Virus record (IMG/VR): IMGVR_UViG_3300010153_003776
Coordinates: 1 to 38,735 of that record
Direction: 5' to 3' (one strand)
Length of the DNA: 38,735 nt
Source of the DNA: a virus
In this document: positions 1 to 11,704 of the stretch, one piece after another
Position numbering within the stretch: position 1 is the first letter of the stretch
How the letters are laid out: each line of letters opens with the position of its first letter
Position numbers and translations under genes: made by a program
Notes under the pieces: generated by a model
Told to the model about the DNA's origin: nothing
What the model saw: the letters and a program-made list of their open reading frames with translations, nothing else
Databases searched by the model: none

Positions 1-1173
1 ATGATATTTGATGCCGGACAGATGGAACGACTTCTCCATCATCTCGGCTTCGACCATTATCCGCGAGCAATAGGGAACCCCCGTCAAGAGTTCGTTCACA
101 CGACTGACGAAATTTATCCCCGGCTCAGAAAGTGGGATGGTGGCGAATCATGCTTCATCTCAACCGCAGGCTACGACAACATCGTCCATGAGGTCGGAGG
201 TAAGAAGGCCCCAAGGACCGTCGTCCATGAGATGACCTTCTTCGATTTCGACCACGAGACAAAACCGGAGAATGCGTTTGCTGATGCCCAGCGATTATCT
301 CAGTTCTTGCGGAAGATGGACATAGCACATTGGGTTCAGTATTCCGGGTCGAAGGGCTACCATTTGTTCATCATTCACAAACCGACCCGCTTCAAGTTTG
401 AACATACCGATGGTTCAGCGGACGCGCTCAAGACTCTCATCAATCAGACTCAGACTCACCTTTCGAAAACTCTCGGCTTGAACACACTCGACGAACAGAC
501 GACGGGGGACCCGAAGAGGCTTTGTCGAATTCCATTCACTCGCCATGTGAACAGGTTCGGAGATTCTTCGGGGCGAATTGCTCTTCCTGTGGAAGTGGAA
601 AAACTTGACGAAATCTCACACGAGGAAGTCGAGAAGTCAGCCTATCGAGCCCAATACTTTCTGCCGGACATTCCCGGTAGGAAAATTTCGCTTGCGGCGT
701 TTATCGAAGAACTCGGTATCGAACTCCACCGGCCCGAGACTCAGATTCGGGATATTATCGGCGTGGACTACGAGACATACGGCGGCGCTGATGTGTTCAT
801 GTCGAGTCTGAACTATCGCTGTCCCGGGGTGGTGAACGAACTCAAGAGAAGGAACCCACCACATAACGCAAGGGTTTTCAGCGCTCTCTTCGCCAAGTCT
901 TTGGGATATTCGCCCGACAAGTTTGAGGAAGTTTGGCAAGAGATGGGACAGACGGTCGGCTATGTGGACCTACACAATACCGAACATCGGCTCTATCAAA
1001 TCTCAACTCTCTTCGACAATCCTCGCTATCGCGCATTCCCGAATTGCACGACGCTCAAGAAGAAGGGCTGTTGTATAGGTGAAACTTGCCCGCGCTGGAA
1101 AGCGTTTATGGGGGTGGGCGAGCAGGTCCCTACAATCAAGAGAACATGGAGGAAGAAGCGTGCCAGCGAATAA
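1..1173 (+). CDS. Archaeo-eukaryotic primase, PriS catalytic domain fused to PriL-like Fe-S domain
   Basis: Synthesises primers for DNA replication. Residues ~1-200 look like the PriS catalytic core: FDFD at 81-84 supplies the paired metal-binding Asp, SGSKGYH at 115-121 matches the nucleotide-binding sGxxGxH motif, and D164 followed by RLCRIPFTRH (173-182) matches the third-Asp region usually followed by RLIRLPxSLH. The C-terminal half (~265-370) resembles the PriL C-terminal domain, with Cys274, Cys349, Cys357/358 and Cys363 spaced like its four 4Fe-4S ligands, a helical stretch after the first Cys and a tyrosine-containing segment before the last three. Archaea normally use two subunits; single-chain fusions are known, for example in Nanoarchaeum. 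The ATG is at base 1, so an upstream extension cannot be excluded. It overlaps the downstream nuclease gene by 14 nt. The primase call is firm; the PriL assignment rests on motif spacing alone. Confidence 0.88.
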   Translation: MIFDAGQMERLLHHLGFDHYPRAIGNPRQEFVHTTDEIYPRLRKWDGGESCFISTAGYDNIVHEVGGKKAPRTVVHEMTFFDFDHETKPENAFADAQRLSQFLRKMDIAHWVQYSGSKGYHLFIIHKPTRFKFEHTDGSADALKTLINQTQTHLSKTLGLNTLDEQTTGDPKRLCRIPFTRHVNRFGDSSGRIALPVEVEKLDEISHEEVEKSAYRAQYFLPDIPGRKISLAAFIEELGIELHRPETQIRDIIGVDYETYGGADVFMSSLNYRCPGVVNELKRRNPPHNARVFSALFAKSLGYSPDKFEEVWQEMGQTVGYVDLHNTEHRLYQISTLFDNPRYRAFPNCTTLKKKGCCIGETCPRWKAFMGVGEQVPTIKRTWRKKRASE

Positions 1174-2523: not shown

Positions 2524-3546
2524 ATGTGGATAGAGTCGTTCAGACCTCAGACTCTTGACGACATTGTTGGTCAAGAACACATCACCCGCCGGATTCGATA
2601 CATGATTGACGAACTCCATCGAGAGGGGAATGATGGCGCGTGGCCACACATGATGTTCGCAGGTCCAGCCGGAGTCGGGAAGACTTCGATGGCTGTTGCC
2701 ATGATGCGTTCACTCTTCGGCGACGATTGGTCGATGAACTACATCGAACTGAATGCGTCTGACTCTCGGAGCATCAACGACATTCGTGGGGCCGTCAAGG
2801 ACTTCGCACGAAAGGGAGTCATGGGCGTCTATCTCGTGGATGGGAAGCCCACCGCAATTCCGTTTAATGTGGTATTCCTTGACGAATGCGACAACCTAAC
2901 TCCGGACGCACAGGCGGCACTTCGCAGAATCATGGAGCGATTCTCAAAGCAGACTCGGTTCGTTCTGTCGTGCAACTATCCTCACCAAATCATCGACCCC
3001 ATCAAAGACAGGTGCGCGTTCAGCGACACCCGGTTCACTCCGATACCAGCGAAGACAATCTATCGCGCTCTCAAGAATGTAGTCGAGAAGGAGGAAGTCG
3101 AGATAACGCCGGAGGCATTGAAGGCAGTTGCGAAATACTCCAAGGGTTCGATGCGGAAGGCGCTGAACTTTCTGTTCTCCGCAACAAGGGTCCCGGGCGA
3201 AGCCACGATTGAAGATGTGAAAGAACTCGTTGCCGAACTTGACGACGACAACATGAGACAACTTCTGAGCCTTGCGTATGCGGCGTCCGAGGCTGAGGGA
3301 ACGAAGCAATCGAACTATCTCCGTAAGTGCGATGAGATGGTGGATTCATACGGCGAGCGCGGGGTGAGCGGCGTGGAAATTTTGGACGCGATTTATTCCT
3401 CAGTGTCCAAAGATGAGCGGCTACCAGCCGGGGTTAAGCGAAATGTATTCAAACATCTCGGACAGGCCATCTTCCAATGTGCGGCGGCTCAAGACGATAT
3501 TCTCGCCGTGAAGGTCTTCGTAAGGAGGGTTGCGCTTGAGTCGTGA
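2524..3546 (+). CDS. rfcS: Replication factor C small subunit (clamp loader AAA+ ATPase)
   Basis: Loads the sliding clamp onto primed DNA. The N-terminus MWIESFRPQTLDDIVGQ is the RFC box. Walker A GPAGVGKT is at 47-54, Walker B FLDECD at 118-123, and the SRC-like motif with its Arg finger at 161-164 reads KDRC instead of the usual SRC. The collar-type helical domain fills ~230-340, a normal family length. I start at ATG 2524, not GTG 2515: the family begins MW.E.(Y/F)RP, and the ATG has the typical distance to the promoter. The partner large subunit is probably the gene at 8570; no sliding clamp gene is present here. The stop codon overlaps the next gene. Confidence 0.95.
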   Translation: MWIESFRPQTLDDIVGQEHITRRIRYMIDELHREGNDGAWPHMMFAGPAGVGKTSMAVAMMRSLFGDDWSMNYIELNASDSRSINDIRGAVKDFARKGVMGVYLVDGKPTAIPFNVVFLDECDNLTPDAQAALRRIMERFSKQTRFVLSCNYPHQIIDPIKDRCAFSDTRFTPIPAKTIYRALKNVVEKEEVEITPEALKAVAKYSKGSMRKALNFLFSATRVPGEATIEDVKELVAELDDDNMRQLLSLAYAASEAEGTKQSNYLRKCDEMVDSYGERGVSGVEILDAIYSSVSKDERLPAGVKRNVFKHLGQAIFQCAAAQDDILAVKVFVRRVALES

Positions 3547-4033: not shown

Positions 4034-5917
4034 ATGGAGACTGAGCCGCACTTAATCGTCGATGTGTTCTATCGAGAGACTGAGCAACCGAAGTCACTCA
4101 CAACCTATCTCCGATTGAAGACCCTTGACGGTCAGACCCGAACCCTTGGCGTCACCAATTGCGTTCCGAGGTTTTGGACAGAAGTCAATCAAGGGACTCA
4201 GCCCAAAATGAAATCAATCACCGGCGAAGACCTTTGGGAAGTTCGCTGTGAACTGCCGTCAGAAATCAAGGGACTCGCCGCTGAGAACTACCCGCATTAT
4301 TGCGCCGATGTTCGTTGGGCGAATTTGGCCCGCTGGATTTACGGATGGACCACGGTTATTGAGGTCAATAGTTCGATTCAATGGAAGGAAGGAATTGGAA
4401 TCGGGAGAACCAAGGACATTCGACCAAGCGAAATCCCGCCCGACAAATTCGAACTTGATACGCTTTGGTTCGACATTGAGACTGAGGACTCGCTTGATAC
4501 GGAGGGGACCGATGGCAGAATAGTCAGTATTGCCTTCTTGCGTCCCGATGGAGCGCATGAAATCGGGACTTGCCACTCCACCAGCCCGAGGCAGGTGAAG
4601 CGCTTCATGCAGTCTCAGAAGGCATTGGAGAGCGTCGTTGAACACACGGAGCCTATACCTCCCGTGGAGGGTGATGTAATCGTTCAGAACTTCGACCAAA
4701 TTGACGAGGACGAAAGAGAGGCGCACCTCCTATGGTGGTTCCAAAGGCGGCTTGAGGAAATCAATCCCGATGTGCTGGCTGGTCAGAATATCAAGGACTA
4801 CGATATTCCGTATCTCATCAATCGGTGCAAGAATCAGAATCGGGCGATGCTCTCCCGGCACGGAGGCAAACCCCCCGTTCATCATCGCTACCCGGGAATG
4901 TGGATTCTCAAACAAAGAGTTCTGTTCGATTCAAAACTTGCCTACGCCGAGCAAGTTCGAGGGGCGGCGGCAACAACCGGCCGAGCATCCCTGTCGTGGA
5001 TGGCGACTTCGGAACTTGGCTACGGGAAGGTCCCTCGCACGCGCATAACAGAATTGATGAAGCGCGACCCAATGATGCTGGCTGTCTATAATGCGTGGGA
5101 TAATGTCTGTGCGGAACGGGTTTGCACCAAACTTGACCTCGTGAATTTCTATCTCATCAAGACCGGCTTTCACAATTCGACACTCCGGAATTCTCACACG
5201 AACATGATGTTGATTGAGGACATGATGGGACACCTTCTGATGGAAGAAGGCAAAGTCATGCCATCGGTTGCTGTCGTGCGCGAGAGAACCAAGGGCGAAA
5301 TCGAACAGGGCGGTCATGTGATGGATGCCCCGGTCGGCGTATGGAAGAACGCATTCGAACTTGATAACTCAATGGAATATCCATCAGCCATTATCTCGGG
5401 CAACTTCTCCCCCGACACGGCAGTCGAGCCCGCAGAAGAATATCCGTATGAGGTCACAATCACTCCGGCCGGTCGAGTCTATCGACGGGACTTTGAAGGC
5501 ATCATGCCCCGGGTTCTCCGGTCGCTTGCTGAACTCCGAAGGAAGACCCAGCAACAGATGAGGGAGACTGACGACCCAAACTTGGCGGCAGTTCTCAATC
5601 AGAAGCAACGGGTCATCAAGGAGAATATGAATTCGTGGTATGGTGTGCTGGGCTCGGGAACTACATCGAAGACGAAGGGCAGACCATTCCGTCTGACCGC
5701 ACCGGGCATCGGAAGTGATGTGACCGAGATAGCGAGAATTCACAACGATTGGAACAAGGACCATCTCAACAAATGGACACTCGGGTTTGATGAAAAACTT
5801 GGCGTGATGCCCCAAGGGTCAGAAGGCTTCCAACTGAAATTCACAACTCTCTATCAAGACACGGACTCGTGCAAGGTCGCAATCGAGAATCACGATGAGG
5901 CAGAAGAAGCCGTGTGA
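4034..5917 (+). CDS. polB: Family B DNA polymerase, exonuclease and palm part (ends at in-frame TGA)
   Basis: Replicative polymerase. The 3'-5' exonuclease motifs are present: Exo I FDIE with D147/E149, Exo II N252...Y256-D257, Exo III Y352...D356. Polymerase motif A is D444-NSMEYPS (an unusual version of DxxSLYPS), motif B K529...N533-SWYG, motif C YQDTDS with D609/D611. The reading frame then meets TGA at 5915-5917, but it continues open in the same frame through thumb-like sequence to 6628. The total would be about 863 residues, normal for the family. A single C-to-T change (CGA to TGA), sequencing error, readthrough or a true split gene are all possible. ATG 4034 is chosen over GTG 4013, which lies inside the promoter motif. 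TGA serves as an ordinary stop in many neighbouring genes. Confidence 0.93.
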   Translation: METEPHLIVDVFYRETEQPKSLTTYLRLKTLDGQTRTLGVTNCVPRFWTEVNQGTQPKMKSITGEDLWEVRCELPSEIKGLAAENYPHYCADVRWANLARWIYGWTTVIEVNSSIQWKEGIGIGRTKDIRPSEIPPDKFELDTLWFDIETEDSLDTEGTDGRIVSIAFLRPDGAHEIGTCHSTSPRQVKRFMQSQKALESVVEHTEPIPPVEGDVIVQNFDQIDEDEREAHLLWWFQRRLEEINPDVLAGQNIKDYDIPYLINRCKNQNRAMLSRHGGKPPVHHRYPGMWILKQRVLFDSKLAYAEQVRGAAATTGRASLSWMATSELGYGKVPRTRITELMKRDPMMLAVYNAWDNVCAERVCTKLDLVNFYLIKTGFHNSTLRNSHTNMMLIEDMMGHLLMEEGKVMPSVAVVRERTKGEIEQGGHVMDAPVGVWKNAFELDNSMEYPSAIISGNFSPDTAVEPAEEYPYEVTITPAGRVYRRDFEGIMPRVLRSLAELRRKTQQQMRETDDPNLAAVLNQKQRVIKENMNSWYGVLGSGTTSKTKGRPFRLTAPGIGSDVTEIARIHNDWNKDHLNKWTLGFDEKLGVMPQGSEGFQLKFTTLYQDTDSCKVAIENHDEAEEAV

Positions 5918-5965
5918 AAATTCACCGAGCAAGATGTAATCAATATCTCCGACCAACTCTCAATC

Positions 5966-6628
5966 ATGCTCAACGACACCTACGACGATTTCGTGAAGCA
6001 ATATCTCAATGTCGATAAGAACGAGTTTTTCCTCGTCAAGCGTGACGCCGCCTACGAACGCTACTTCTCTTGGGGAGTCAAGAAGCGATACGCCTACCGA
6101 CTGTTCGACGGAACTCAAGGACACCGAGGCGTGGAGATGCGCAGGTCGAGTGCGCCGACCGTAGTGAAGGAAGCCCAAGCCCGAATCTTCGACGCGATAC
6201 TCGATGGGGTCACACGAGAGGGCATCGTCAGAATCCTACGAACGATTCACAACGACATTATGGATGAAGAGATTACACCAGCAATTCACTTCGGGACTCC
6301 AATGGGAATGAAGACGAACACGACCCAGCAATTCAAAGCCGCCATGTGGAGCAACAAAAACTTGGGGACGGATTTCGATATTGGCGATAAGCCGGTGATT
6401 TATCTTGCTTCAAATACCCCCAAGGGTTTGCCTTCTAACAAGGTGGTCGCATTAGAATACTCGGAGAAGCCCGAAGACCACGGCGTCATCGTGGACAGGC
6501 AACGGTCATTCGACAAGCACTTCAAAGCGAGCGCGTCGTGGAAATCCATTCTGTCCGCATTCGGAACTTCATGGGAGAACGCATTGGCCGGGGTCCATCT
6601 CGGCAACTTCGACGGGTGGTTTGAATGA
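5966..6628 (+). CDS. polB: Family B DNA polymerase, C-terminal thumb part (same frame, downstream of TGA)
   Basis: This 220-residue stretch continues the PolB frame after the TGA at 5915-5917; 16 sense codons separate that TGA from ATG 5966. It contains WGVKKRYAY (residues ~36-44), the KKRY motif that follows motif C in archaeal and viral family B polymerases, and ends with thumb-like helices. No ribosome-binding site or promoter of the type seen elsewhere precedes ATG 5966, so independent translation is not obviously supported. Split PolB proteins with a C-terminal piece of about this size are known in Methanothermobacter, so a functional two-chain enzyme is conceivable. The end overlaps the next gene by ATGA. 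Confidence 0.85.
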   Translation: MLNDTYDDFVKQYLNVDKNEFFLVKRDAAYERYFSWGVKKRYAYRLFDGTQGHRGVEMRRSSAPTVVKEAQARIFDAILDGVTREGIVRILRTIHNDIMDEEITPAIHFGTPMGMKTNTTQQFKAAMWSNKNLGTDFDIGDKPVIYLASNTPKGLPSNKVVALEYSEKPEDHGVIVDRQRSFDKHFKASASWKSILSAFGTSWENALAGVHLGNFDGWFE

Positions 6629-7207: not shown

Positions 7208-8398
7208 ATGCAGTTAATAGATGCTATGAGAGATGCAGTAAGAGGCGCTGGTGGGCGCATATCGGAGGATGATTACATCACTTCGATTATGGACCAACTA
7301 ACCGCCGACGGAGGGTCGCCTGTTGAGCGGTCCATCCGTTCGAATGCGTTCGCCGCAGGGCGAATGAAGCAGGCAGGCGTGACGAGAGTCACCATCGGCG
7401 GAGGCGCTGATGTTGTGAAGGAAGTATGGATTCAGAAGATGGCAGACGACTTGCAGTCGTTCGGAGCCAGCAACGGCTCATCTTCGACCGGCGGTGGTGG
7501 CCACGCGGCTACCATCACAAATGCTACCGGACAGGTTTGGATGGGAATTCCCGTCGCAGACATTTCGACCTTTGACGACAGGACAGCCGCGCTTGTTCCA
7601 AAGACTTCACCCGGGTTCGTTGAGAGCCCCGGCGAGGAACTTGAGGGAATGGCAGACGCATTCATCGAGGGACTTCACATGATATTTGAGGGACCAAAGG
7701 GATGCGGGAAGACCATCGCAGTCGCACAGTTTTGCTTCAACACCCAACTGCCAATGTATAGGTTCAACTGCTCCGAGGGAATAACCGAGGACGACTTGGT
7801 TGGATGCAAAGAGGCAATCGCTGGGAACACAGTATGGGTTGATGGAATCATCCCTCGCTGGGCTCGCACCGGTGGAATCCTTTTCGCTGACGAATTCAAC
7901 GGCGCTTCGCCGTCCGTCATGCTATGGCTACACATGGGAATGGACTCGGGAACTATCCTTCTTCCAACAGGCGAGAAGATTGACCTTCACCCGACTTGCA
8001 GGGTCGTCGCGGCTATCAACCCGCCCGAGGACTACGCTGGGCTTGAGGAACTAAACGAGGCTACTCGTGACCGATACGCTCTCGGACTTGAGTTCGACTA
8101 CCTACCATCGGCAGATGAGCAGAATGTAATCATGGACCAATCCGGCAACTTCGACTCGGGCCTTGCTCGTGAGATAGTCACACTCGCTGGCGACCTTCGC
8201 AGACTCAAGAAGGACGGCTCGCTTGGGAAGGACTGTTCCACTCGTTCACTCGTGCAGGTAATGAAACTTGCAAAGAGGCAGAACCAAACGAAGGCAGTCG
8301 AGAGAGCGCTCATCAGCAAATACGACAGGCACGACAGGGAGAAGGTGCGCACAACAGCACGCGCTCGCCTTTCGAACTTCGGCGTCATCACGGCTTGA
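7208..8398 (+). CDS. MoxR/CobS-type AAA+ ATPase
   Basis: An AAA+ chaperone-like ATPase of the MoxR/CobS/CbbQ group, which usually remodels a protein complex together with a VWA-domain partner. The N-terminal ~125 residues are of unknown fold with a Gly/Ser-rich linker (~86-100). Walker A GPKGCGKT is at 162-169, Walker B LFADE at 225-229, sensor-1 Asn at 271 and candidate Arg fingers at 287/289 (EATRDRY). The VWA partner is encoded at 9512, with an RFC-L-like gene between. CobS-like genes also occur in tailed phages, so cobalamin synthesis is not implied. The gene has its own type B promoter and a ribosome-binding site (GGAG). Confidence 0.9.
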   Translation: MQLIDAMRDAVRGAGGRISEDDYITSIMDQLTADGGSPVERSIRSNAFAAGRMKQAGVTRVTIGGGADVVKEVWIQKMADDLQSFGASNGSSSTGGGGHAATITNATGQVWMGIPVADISTFDDRTAALVPKTSPGFVESPGEELEGMADAFIEGLHMIFEGPKGCGKTIAVAQFCFNTQLPMYRFNCSEGITEDDLVGCKEAIAGNTVWVDGIIPRWARTGGILFADEFNGASPSVMLWLHMGMDSGTILLPTGEKIDLHPTCRVVAAINPPEDYAGLEELNEATRDRYALGLEFDYLPSADEQNVIMDQSGNFDSGLAREIVTLAGDLRRLKKDGSLGKDCSTRSLVQVMKLAKRQNQTKAVERALISKYDRHDREKVRTTARARLSNFGVITA

Positions 8399-8476: not shown

Positions 8477-8489
8477 TTAAATAGGTGGG
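8477..8489 (+). promoter_or_regulatory. Type A promoter of the PIP microprotein and RFC-L-like genes
   Basis: TTAAATAGGTGGG. TTAA begins 29 nt and GGTGGG 22 nt before GTG 8506, exactly the distances at the PolB gene. The geometry points to GTG 8506, and not ATG 8570, as the first start codon of the mRNA. Confidence 0.65.
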
Positions 8490-8505: not shown

Positions 8506-8586
8506 GTGCGGCAGACTACTCTTCACGAATTCGGTGCTGAGATAACCGGCGACAGGCAGGCGACACTCCATGAGTGGTGCAACTAA
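8506..8586 (+). CDS. 26-residue microprotein with two PIP-box-like motifs
   Basis: A short ORF starting at GTG 8506. The product reads RQTTLHEF near the N-terminus and RQATLHEW near the C-terminus, 15 residues apart. Both fit the clamp-binding QxxLxx(F/W) core of the PCNA-interacting peptide. Of the eight codon pairs in the two copies, five differ synonymously (CGG/AGG, ACT/ACA, CTT/CTC, CAC/CAT, GAA/GAG), two encode similar residues and one is identical. This pattern suggests selection on the protein. The ORF overlaps ATG 8570 of the RFC-L-like gene in another frame, so the two are likely translationally coupled. A frameshift fusing the peptide to the N-terminus of that protein is an alternative. 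PCNA binding is inference. Confidence 0.6.
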   Translation: MRQTTLHEFGAEITGDRQATLHEWCN

Positions 8587-9427
8587 TCTCTATGGTCGAA
8601 AGGCCGATTGGGACCCGCTGAAATCTTGGCTTGAAGCATGGAACAGCGGGAGCAGGCCCGAAGTCTATCCCTTCATCATCATAGGTGAATCCGGCTGGGG
8701 CAAATCCACTCTCGCGCATCGCATGAGTGAGGCCGTAGGCATGGCCCCGACTGCCAGCGACGGCGGGTTCCGAGATGGAAAACAATTACAGAAATGGTTC
8801 GGCCAAGTTCGAAGTAGGTCGTTCACCAACGAGATGCGCGTCGGGATTCTTGACGATGCGTCATTCCTTTCGTCCGCTGAGTGGAAACTTGTCGGCGAGC
8901 AGGTGAAGTTGAAGGCGTTCCCAATGGTCGTGTGCGTTCAGACCGACGCCGATATTCCTTGGCCAATTCGAAAGGGCGCGAGCATTCTCAAACTTGAGCA
9001 ACCGAAGCCGGAGTATCTTCATAGATTCTTAGAGACTATTGAGCCCGATAGGTCGGACCTTTGGACCATAGCGAATCTTGCGTCAAGTTTTCGACAGGCA
9101 GAACTGATTCTCAAAACGACACCCGAAGGATTCGTGGACAAGTTTGCGGACTCGTTCCAACAACGCATTCCATCTCGGACTCGTCATGCAGAAGTCGTCG
9201 CCATCTTGCAAGGCAAATACCCCGACACGAATTTCACTTCTCATCCTCTCGCAATTTTGCAGGCCGCGAATCACAATCATGCGGACCCGGAACAAGTCTC
9301 GGAAGCAATCGTCCTCCACGGAATGTCGTGGAAGACGGACCTATTGGAACCAATAGCCCGAGGATATTTGGTGAATCTCAGAACAAAAACTTGGGCTCGT
9401 CCTCCATTCAGAAAATTGAGAAGGTGA
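8570..9427 (+). CDS. RFC large-subunit-like AAA+ ATPase
   Basis: 285 residues. The N-terminus YGRKADWDPLKSWLEAW followed by IIIGESGWGKST resembles the opening of archaeal RFC-L (LKxWLExW, then Walker A). Walker A is G39-x4-G44-K45-S46 and Walker B ILDD at 93-96. The rest is consistent with lid and helical domains but is shorter than cellular RFC-L (usually over 400 residues) and lacks its C-terminal PIP tail; the upstream microprotein may supply that function. With the RFC small subunit at 2524 it could form a viral clamp loader. Another AAA+ role tied to the flanking MoxR and VWA genes is possible. It is translated from within the end of the microprotein ORF. Confidence 0.72.
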   Translation: MSGATNLYGRKADWDPLKSWLEAWNSGSRPEVYPFIIIGESGWGKSTLAHRMSEAVGMAPTASDGGFRDGKQLQKWFGQVRSRSFTNEMRVGILDDASFLSSAEWKLVGEQVKLKAFPMVVCVQTDADIPWPIRKGASILKLEQPKPEYLHRFLETIEPDRSDLWTIANLASSFRQAELILKTTPEGFVDKFADSFQQRIPSRTRHAEVVAILQGKYPDTNFTSHPLAILQAANHNHADPEQVSEAIVLHGMSWKTDLLEPIARGYLVNLRTKTWARPPFRKLRR

Positions 9428-9489: not shown

Positions 9490-9511
9490 CCCGACACCGG
9501 AGATGCGAGAC

Positions 9512-11704
9512 ATGGAGCAGATGATAGAGACACGAAAGGCCGATGACGCCGCTATGGATAGGGCGCTTGGCCGAAGAATGCTACACATCGGACGCATCAT
9601 GGCAACCGATTCACACGGAATGGGAACGAGAGTCAAGACCGTCACAATCGACACCGACGGACGGGCTTGCACTGATGGCGAGAATGTTTGGATTCCTTCC
9701 AGCATGGGGAAGACCCCGGAGCAGAATTTGATAATGCAAGAAGCAGTTCTCGCTCACGAGATTGCTGGCCACCACCGATACACGGACTTCACAGTTTGGA
9801 ACAACGAGGTCGTGAAGAAAATCAAGAACGGGACCGAGGACCCACTACTTCACCAATTCGTGAACTGCCTTGAGGACTCCCGAATCAATCACCTACTTTC
9901 ACAGGACTTCCCGGGTAGTGGGAAGAGAATGGACTACACTCACGCAGTCTTCATGGCCCGCCATAAGGCTCACACCACTGACCTATCTCCGCAGAAGCAA
10001 CAGGCGATGGTCGCTATGATGAGCGAGACAATCGCGCACGAGGCACATTGGTTCACCACGCCCGAGGTCGTCGCTTGGATGGACGAGAACAGGGCGCTCA
10101 TGCAGAACGCTTGCAGTCAGCCCGACACCCGTGGAGTTGTGAAGCAGGCAAAGAGAGTTCTCGCTTCTTTCAGAAAGGCATTCCCCGAGGAAGAGATGGA
10201 CCCTAACATGAACGGTGGCTACGACGGCAACGGCGGAGACAACGCTGAGGGAACCTCGGCCGAGATGGAGTCTCAGTCCGACATAGAGAGAGCGGCACAG
10301 GCCCAGCAACAGAACGGTGGAGAGCCCGAGAAGGTATCGAAGAACCGGTTCAACGACAAGAAGCAGAAACTTGAGAAGTCCCTTGACGAGCAGAAGGAGA
10401 ACCAACAGGGAGACAGTTCCCCCGGTGGCGAATCCAGCGATGCTGAGGGTGATGACCCGGATGGTGGACTTGGCGGCGACGAGGACGGCGAGGCTGACGG
10501 CGATGCAGAAGGTGGCATGGGCGGCGATGGCGACGGCGGCGAAGAAGCAGACGGAGCAGGCTCCGAATGTGATGGCGCGGCTGACGGCGAAGGCGACGGT
10601 GACGGTGGCGAATCCAGCGACGGCGAGGCCGACGGACAGGGCGACGAGAGCGACGCCAACAACGACGGCGAGGACGGATGCGGCGGCGAGGACTTCAATC
10701 CATTCGGCGACGCTGAGAACATGGATGACTTCACAGAACTTTGGGCAGACCTACAGGGCGACGCCCGGGCTTCGCTTGACTCGATGGACAGGGAGGCTCT
10801 TGACGAGCAAATCCACCACGAGGAAGATATGCAAAGGGCGCTTGACGAAGTGGAACACGAGAGAATATCCGTGGAGGGTCACTCCTTGGAAATCGTGGCT
10901 GGCGCAACCGATATGTTCCAATACGACTACGAACACAATTCTCATCAACTCATCAACGGCAACGAGAGATACAACGGAGTCAAGGAAGAGAACAGGTCCG
11001 GCATTCAGAACTTGGTGAACGAAATCAAGAGACAACTCAAAGGACGAAACTCCCGCATGGAGCGTGGACTCAAGAGAGGCCGCGTGACCAACAAGGACAT
11101 TTGGAAGGTGAACCAAACCGGAGCGAAGATGTTCCAGCGAAGAGCCATCCCGAAGAAGGTGGACGCTTCCGCAATCATCCTCATTGACTCGTCCGGTTCG
11201 ATGGGCGGCAGAAAGTCGGCTTGCGCGGCAGACGCGGCAGTCGTCTTCTCCGAGGTAATGCACGCAGTCGGTGTGGACTACGAGGTCATCGACTTTTGCA
11301 CCGGCCGAGGAACTACCATGAGAGTTCGAAAGGCGCTTGACTCCACACTCGGCGAGACTGAAAAGGCAGTCATCTCCAACCCAACTTCCGGAGGATGCAA
11401 CGCTGACGGATATGCGGTTCAGTGGTGCTTAGACAGGCTCCGAACACGACAGGGCGCGAAGATGCTCTTCGTCCTCTCGGACGGTCAGCCAACTGACGGC
11501 GGACCCGGTGGAATGCACGCAGGCGAATGGCTCAGAAAGGTCGTCGGCAACGCTGGAAAAGATGTGGCGCTTGCTGGCGTGGGCATTCAATCCGATGCAG
11601 TCACTTCCTACTACGACAATTGTATAGTCGTCAATGATGCCCGAGAACTTGCTGGAAAAATGCTTCCGGTGATGAGGGGAATGCTAAACAAAATCGTGGT
11701 CTGA
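9512..11704 (+). CDS. CobT-like VWA protein with HExxGHH metalloprotease-like N-terminus
   Basis: About 730 residues, numbered here from ATG 9503. The N-terminal part has HEIAGHH (85-91) followed by NCLEDSRI (~121-128), as in phage and CobT-like VWA proteins with a zinc-protease-like motif. Residues ~225-410 are an extreme Gly/Asp/Glu linker. The C-terminal VWA domain carries the MIDAS motif DSSGS (562-566) and LSDGQPTDGG further on. It is probably the partner of the MoxR-type ATPase at 7208, as CobS pairs with CobT. Metal chelation, proteolysis and assembly or disassembly of a complex all remain possible. ATG 9512 is preferred because GGAG lies 9 nt upstream; ATG 9503 is in frame. Confidence 0.87.
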   Translation: MEQMIETRKADDAAMDRALGRRMLHIGRIMATDSHGMGTRVKTVTIDTDGRACTDGENVWIPSSMGKTPEQNLIMQEAVLAHEIAGHHRYTDFTVWNNEVVKKIKNGTEDPLLHQFVNCLEDSRINHLLSQDFPGSGKRMDYTHAVFMARHKAHTTDLSPQKQQAMVAMMSETIAHEAHWFTTPEVVAWMDENRALMQNACSQPDTRGVVKQAKRVLASFRKAFPEEEMDPNMNGGYDGNGGDNAEGTSAEMESQSDIERAAQAQQQNGGEPEKVSKNRFNDKKQKLEKSLDEQKENQQGDSSPGGESSDAEGDDPDGGLGGDEDGEADGDAEGGMGGDGDGGEEADGAGSECDGAADGEGDGDGGESSDGEADGQGDESDANNDGEDGCGGEDFNPFGDAENMDDFTELWADLQGDARASLDSMDREALDEQIHHEEDMQRALDEVEHERISVEGHSLEIVAGATDMFQYDYEHNSHQLINGNERYNGVKEENRSGIQNLVNEIKRQLKGRNSRMERGLKRGRVTNKDIWKVNQTGAKMFQRRAIPKKVDASAIILIDSSGSMGGRKSACAADAAVVFSEVMHAVGVDYEVIDFCTGRGTTMRVRKALDSTLGETEKAVISNPTSGGCNADGYAVQWCLDRLRTRQGAKMLFVLSDGQPTDGGPGGMHAGEWLRKVVGNAGKDVALAGVGIQSDAVTSYYDNCIVVNDARELAGKMLPVMRGMLNKIVV

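Follow-up and report, generated by a model that had tools for sequence, protein, structure and literature searches.

The 26-residue open reading frame (ORF) that starts at GTG 8506 in a DNA stretch of 38,735 nt from an archaeal virus (IMG/VR record IMGVR_UViG_3300010153_003776, hereafter the window) is a real gene. Its product appears to be the smallest protein of a family that has not been described before and that is represented at the same position in about 10 virus lineages. The start codon and the C-terminal tail are retained in it, whereas the coiled coil is gone and the tail motif is present twice. On balance, and with modest confidence, we favor a reading in which this member of a coiled-coil/PIP-like-tail family aids the viral clamp loader by docking on the clamp, being co-transcribed and translationally coupled with an RFC-large-like subunit. 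The features discussed below are collected in Table 1.

Table 1. Coordinates of the microprotein gene, its motifs and its neighbors in the window
Feature	Coordinates	Strand	Basis and remarks
26-aa microprotein MRQTTLHEFGAEITGDRQATLHEWCN	8506..8586	+	GTG start; sequence, repeat analysis, positional homologues in ~10 virus lineages
PIP-like motif 1, RQTTLHEF	8509..8532	+	Sequence, repeat analysis; fused to start codon
PIP-like motif 2, RQATLHEW	8554..8577	+	Sequence, repeat analysis, tails of relatives
TATA-like TTAAATA (8477-8483, -29) and GGTGGG box (8484-8489, -22)	8477..8489	+	Apparent promoter of the microprotein/AAA+ pair; same box in nearly all relatives
Clamp-loader-type AAA+ ATPase (RFC-large-like)	8570..9427	+	PHROG, Foldseek, hhalign; no PIP tail
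RFC small subunit (RFC-S)/clamp loader	2524..3546	+	PHROG clamp loader, E 6e-50; GGTGGG box at 2503
MoxR/CobS-like AAA+ ATPase, upstream neighbor	7208..8398	+	Pfam AAA_5, E 1.5e-19, CbbQ_C; conserved in all relatives
VWA/CobT-like protein, downstream neighbor	9503..11704	+	Pfam CobT_C, E 2.4e-17; in most relatives
PolB reading frame	4034..6628	+	Pfam DNA_pol_B/exo; C terminus HLGNFDGWFE (6596-6625) at PIP-box position

The distance from the GGTGGG box to the start codon is 22 nt for the microprotein, 21 nt for RFC-S (ATG 2524), and 22 nt for PolB (ATG 4034). Three further starts in the window, ATG 16038, 29393, and 35367, lie 21 to 22 nt past such an element. Because several starts share this spacing, GGTGGG has the appearance of a functional leaderless-type promoter element in the window virus, possibly a virus-specific one placed downstream of TATA. 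The geometry described in the initial annotation, with TATA at -29 and GGTGGG at -22, is correct, and its box-to-start spacing recurs at both the RFC-S and the PolB genes; the one correction is that it points to ATG 4034, and not to GTG 4013, as the PolB start. TATA-like sequences followed by GGTGGG were located at window positions 2503, 4012, 8484, 16016, 29372, and 35345, in each case 21 to 22 nt before a start.

As the initial annotation had reported, the ORF encodes two QxxLxx(F/W) motifs 15 residues apart, and its end overlaps the start of the AAA+ gene (ATG 8570), by 17 nt. The motif pair by itself is uncommon but not decisive, since 6 of 300 Markov-simulated windows also contained two such motifs within 20 residues. 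The two 8-codon repeats were more informative about the peptide. They differ at 9 nucleotides but at only 2 residues, and when 9 substitutions were placed at random, so small a number of residue changes had P = 0.0009; one codon pair is identical and, as had been noted, five of the eight differ only synonymously. So few residue changes among nine nucleotide differences support selection acting on the peptide following an internal duplication. Motif 1 is probably the duplicate copy; motif 2 matches the C-terminal motif of the relatives (DRQATLHEW in the window versus DRMQKRIDSEW in the sister virus L031). A chance match, considered as a source of the motif pair, was ruled out by the relatives, the synonymous pattern, and the promoter spacing.

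The constraint between the repeats also bears on whether the residues matter at all. A leader peptide or upstream ORF, whose translation merely couples ribosomes to the AAA+ start, would fit the overlap and the leaderless start. Its residues would be irrelevant, however, which is at odds with the protein-level constraint between the repeats, with dN/dS values below 1 in the relatives, and with the conservation of the motif. We consider this explanation very unlikely.

The PIP motif is defined as Qxx-aliphatic-xx-aromatic-aromatic, and in archaea it lies at the extreme C terminus; among confirmed PCNA binders, one aromatic is missing in 43% and both are missing in 10% (PMC6881253). The window motifs have the glutamine and the aliphatic residue of positions 1 and 4 (QTTL and QATL). 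They do not have both aromatics, with F or W at position 7 and G or C at position 8. Because the second aromatic is missing, the motifs as read from the sequence are best named PIP-like rather than canonical PIP boxes.

Relatives were gathered by searches with the VWA and MoxR neighbors, which returned some 20 loci belonging to about 10 lineages. The locus order was MoxR, small ORF, AAA+, and in most cases VWA, and a small ORF occupied the slot at every syntenic locus with readable flanks. Its start lay 21 to 22 nt after a GGTGG[GA] box except in L040 and L053/L020, where the small ORFs were assigned by position and frame. The encoded proteins are 48 to 74 aa long and combine a heptad-patterned N-terminal helix with a C-terminal Qxx[LIM] tail. 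The heptad excess over shuffles was significant (P < 0.05) in 9 of 16 small proteins and marginal in the others, and the Pfam matches were mostly to generic coiled coils. In close pairs, dN/dS of the small ORF was 0 to 0.44, which indicates purifying selection. The initial annotation had looked to related genomes for conservation of both motifs. Position, promoter spacing, frame, and the Qxx[LIM] core are indeed conserved, but the two motifs are not a family rule: the relatives carry a single C-terminal motif behind the coiled coil, and the doubling is specific to the window virus. The window gene is a putative homologue of the longer members on the grounds of its position, the spacing from the promoter, its frame relative to that of the AAA+ gene, and its tail motif, the overall identity being too low for proof.

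A pattern search with the exact spacing of the doubled motif matched no other virus and recovered no second genome with the doubled form; pattern searching from the initial AAA+ alignment was precluded by its diversity. An RFC-S-based search for closer relatives yielded only the known sister virus and one fragment ending before the locus. No relative was found by a single-protein search with the window AAA+ or by scanning GTDB genomes with the VWA profile. Likewise, tblastn gave no match for two AAA+ homologues against GenBank phages or for the window AAA+ against the phage collection.

Loss of the coiled coil relative to the sister virus L031, whose MoxR is 72% identical to that of the window, could be taken to mean that the window gene is a nonfunctional, decaying remnant, and the PolB frame of the window virus also contains an in-frame stop. 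Against this stand a start codon at the exact promoter spacing, a frame that is open, and a motif that is duplicated and conserved at the residue level, so that decay seems highly improbable. The PolB stop is a TGA at 5915 to 5917; because the frame is uninterrupted at that place in the aligned relatives, we read it as an error in the sequence or as the mark of a gene that is broken or split.

The tails of the small proteins include QTTLMGWK (L048), QFTLHQF (L044), QKRIDSEW (L031), QRRIGDDF (L032), QRRIDGEY (L034), QRKLNDIY (L036), QRTLWSP (L020), QQTLIPPKQKRLF (L037), and QTTLIPRKQKTL (L046). Qxx[LIM] was present in the C-terminal 30 residues of all 11 lineage representatives, against a mean of 4.1 in shuffled sequences (0/5000 shuffles reached 11), and 8 of the 11 had QxTL (shuffle mean, 0.2). 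The full PIP-like form, with an aromatic at +6/+7, was present in six (shuffle mean, 0.5; 0/5000 reached 6). The relatives carry one aromatic at position 7 or 8, or none. Because the aromatic is missing in five of the representatives (those of the QQTLIPPKQKRLF type, and QRTLWSP in L020), these tails may bind a different partner.

By fold and sequence, the AAA+ protein encoded downstream is of the clamp-loader type. It matched a PHROG clamp loader (E 7e-5), and its AlphaFold2 model (pLDDT 79) had RFC, delta-prime, and T4 loader subunits as the top Foldseek matches. In VIA-align, RFC1/CTF18 large subunits came out on top, tied with other AAA+ proteins, with p97 and Vps4 scoring nearly equally; matches to PDB sequences were mostly small subunits. 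With hhalign, E was 1e-12 to gp87, the RFC-L-like protein of halovirus HVTV-1, versus 6e-7 to HVTV-1 RFC-S. Cellular archaeal RFC-L carries a C-terminal PIP in cis. The clamp-loader character that the initial annotation had given the window gene was borne out by these matches, as was the missing PIP tail: none of 18 AAA+ homologues had a PIP motif in the last 40 residues. The homologous gp87, which lies downstream of PolB, differs in being 417 aa long and in having its own QSVLDF tail, with no separate small PIP protein seen directly adjoining it. We also observed a common short motif at the C termini of HVTV-1 (L054) proteins, namely, RFC-L gp87 (QSVLDF), PolB gp91 (GVLSW), gp90 (DPLDF), gp99 (DVLGF), and gp69 (NVLEF), which is perhaps a mini clamp-binding tail.

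Pfam PCNA models gave no match in the viral records. The absence of a viral clamp, first suggested by this result, was overturned by a clamp-fold gene adjoining the AAA+ gene of L020. A protein of about 265 aa is conserved in six related genomes (L020:5691-6482, L031:646-1440, L052:862-1656, L032, L034, and L044). Its model (pLDDT 83.7) matched PCNA and beta clamps best in Foldseek (E 2e-10), and it is predicted to have a divergent, two-domain PCNA/beta-clamp fold that is invisible to Pfam and PHROGs. In L020/L053 the gene order is MoxR, small ORF, AAA+, clamp, primase, which places the small ORF/AAA+ pair beside the clamp. In the sister virus L031 the clamp lies one small gene before the primase. 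Since the clamp precedes the primase in L031, and the left edge of the window falls inside or at the start of the primase gene, we expect the clamp gene of the window virus just beyond that edge, outside the window. No clamp match was obtained in the L036 and L037-L043 clades, where the contigs are fragments.

The PolB proteins of the relatives end in a PIP box that matches the small-protein tail. Their C termini read QADMGDWFA, QADMGEWFT, QMSLDQWFQ, QVGLDEWFK, QVDLEDWFT, and TSTLDEWFS, and that of the window reads LGNFDGWFE. When 362 non-overlapping ORFs with lengths of 60 aa or more were scanned, only 10 carried a PIP-like motif among their 20 C-terminal residues: five PolBs, one member of the small-protein family, two primases, and two others that are most likely due to chance. 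By these counts, few proteins of these genomes have a PIP-like C terminus, and those that do are mainly replication proteins. Two further C termini were seen in these genomes. That of the primase (L032:1387-2565, L034:1615-2808, and window 1-1173) follows the conserved pattern xxxI[KN]R[KT]W[RS]K, with QPQIKRKWRKK in two viruses, and is possibly another clamp-binding tail. In one clade (L036, L038-L041, and L043), a protein of about 160 aa encoded upstream of RFC-S ends in KR[KR][ST][AP][FW], a conserved aromatic tail reminiscent of SSB-type tails.

The small protein could instead act as an adaptor, with a coiled coil and a conserved Q-x-T-L tail that contacts one of the AAA+ partners, either RFC-L or MoxR/VWA, and not the clamp. 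Its gene always lies between MoxR and AAA+, and the QTLIPxKQ[KR]xL tails of L037, L040-L043, and L046 have no aromatic anchors. Yet six lineages do have the aromatic, with tails that align with the PolB PIP box, and in L020 the small gene is coupled to AAA+/clamp rather than to AAA+/VWA. We regard an adaptor of this type as rather unlikely.

According to our preferred model, the small protein and the RFC-large-like AAA+ would be co-transcribed and translationally coupled, as the overlap and the promoter position suggest. The tail would dock on the sliding clamp, and the docked protein would help the viral clamp loader to capture or hold it, so that the RFC-L, itself devoid of a PIP, would receive a PIP tail in trans. 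In the relatives, the coiled coil would make the protein multivalent; in the window form, from which the coiled coil is gone, the doubled motif may keep two clamp contacts per molecule. Set only 15 residues apart, the two motifs probably could not reach two pockets of a single ring without strain, so that rebinding or an increase in local occupancy would be more likely than ring bridging. A more specific version, in which the PIP tail of the clamp loader has become a separate oligomeric microprotein, encoded in the same operon, that has shrunk here to a 26-residue, two-PIP peptide, with duplication replacing coiled-coil multivalency, is one that we put forward only tentatively.

The initial annotation had suggested the host clamp as the target. 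That proposal was not supported as stated, because the relatives encode their own clamp and their PolB has a matching C-terminal PIP box; the viral clamp is the likelier partner. A decoy that fills the PIP pocket of host PCNA and shuts down host replication, like p21 or TIP (the Thermococcales inhibitor of PCNA), would be consistent with the small size and the doubled motif. However, viruses of this group encode a clamp themselves, every relative has the small gene linked to the viral clamp loader, and a free PolB-type motif would block the virus's own clamp too, all of which makes host-clamp blocking decidedly unlikely.

TIP is the nearest functional analogue, being likewise very small (64 aa), archaeal, and directed at PCNA, with an arguable PIP (PMC4929162). 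It differs in being cellular and in having a PH-like domain, an N-terminal putative PIP, no coiled coil, and no known link to a clamp loader; the window protein has 26 aa and its relatives look like coiled coils, which sets them outside the TIP family. The QxxLxx(aromatic) core is common to the small proteins and the archaeal PIP-box proteins (PolB, RFC-L, Fen1, NucS, and NreA), and the Archaeoglobus fulgidus consensus peptide KTTQSTLDSFFK resembles NQTTLMGW and RQATLHEW (PMC4929162). In contrast to those proteins, the small family has one aromatic only, and the motif, instead of ending an enzyme, makes up nearly all of the protein or ends a coiled coil encoded separately. The replication module of Magrovirales (Aoguangviridae and relatives) likewise brings together PolB, primase, RFC-S, and a PCNA-type clamp (PMC10768690), and the ICTV profiles of this group that were consulted describe no small coiled-coil/PIP protein. 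The statement that no equivalent had been described agrees with our finding none in the open-access literature searched, although absence there is no proof.

These results indicate that very short leaderless genes of archaeal viruses, which are missed by annotation, can be found through promoter spacing and synteny. A useful by-product is the divergent viral clamp, which neither Pfam nor PHROGs detects. Both clamp loaders and sliding clamps are ancient, with a conserved composition. The virus may have moved the docking tail of its clamp loader into a separate tiny protein. If true, this protein would be a natural minimal clamp-binding peptide, and a loader whose docking tail comes from a separate, near-minimal gene would reveal the extent to which the machine can be dismantled.
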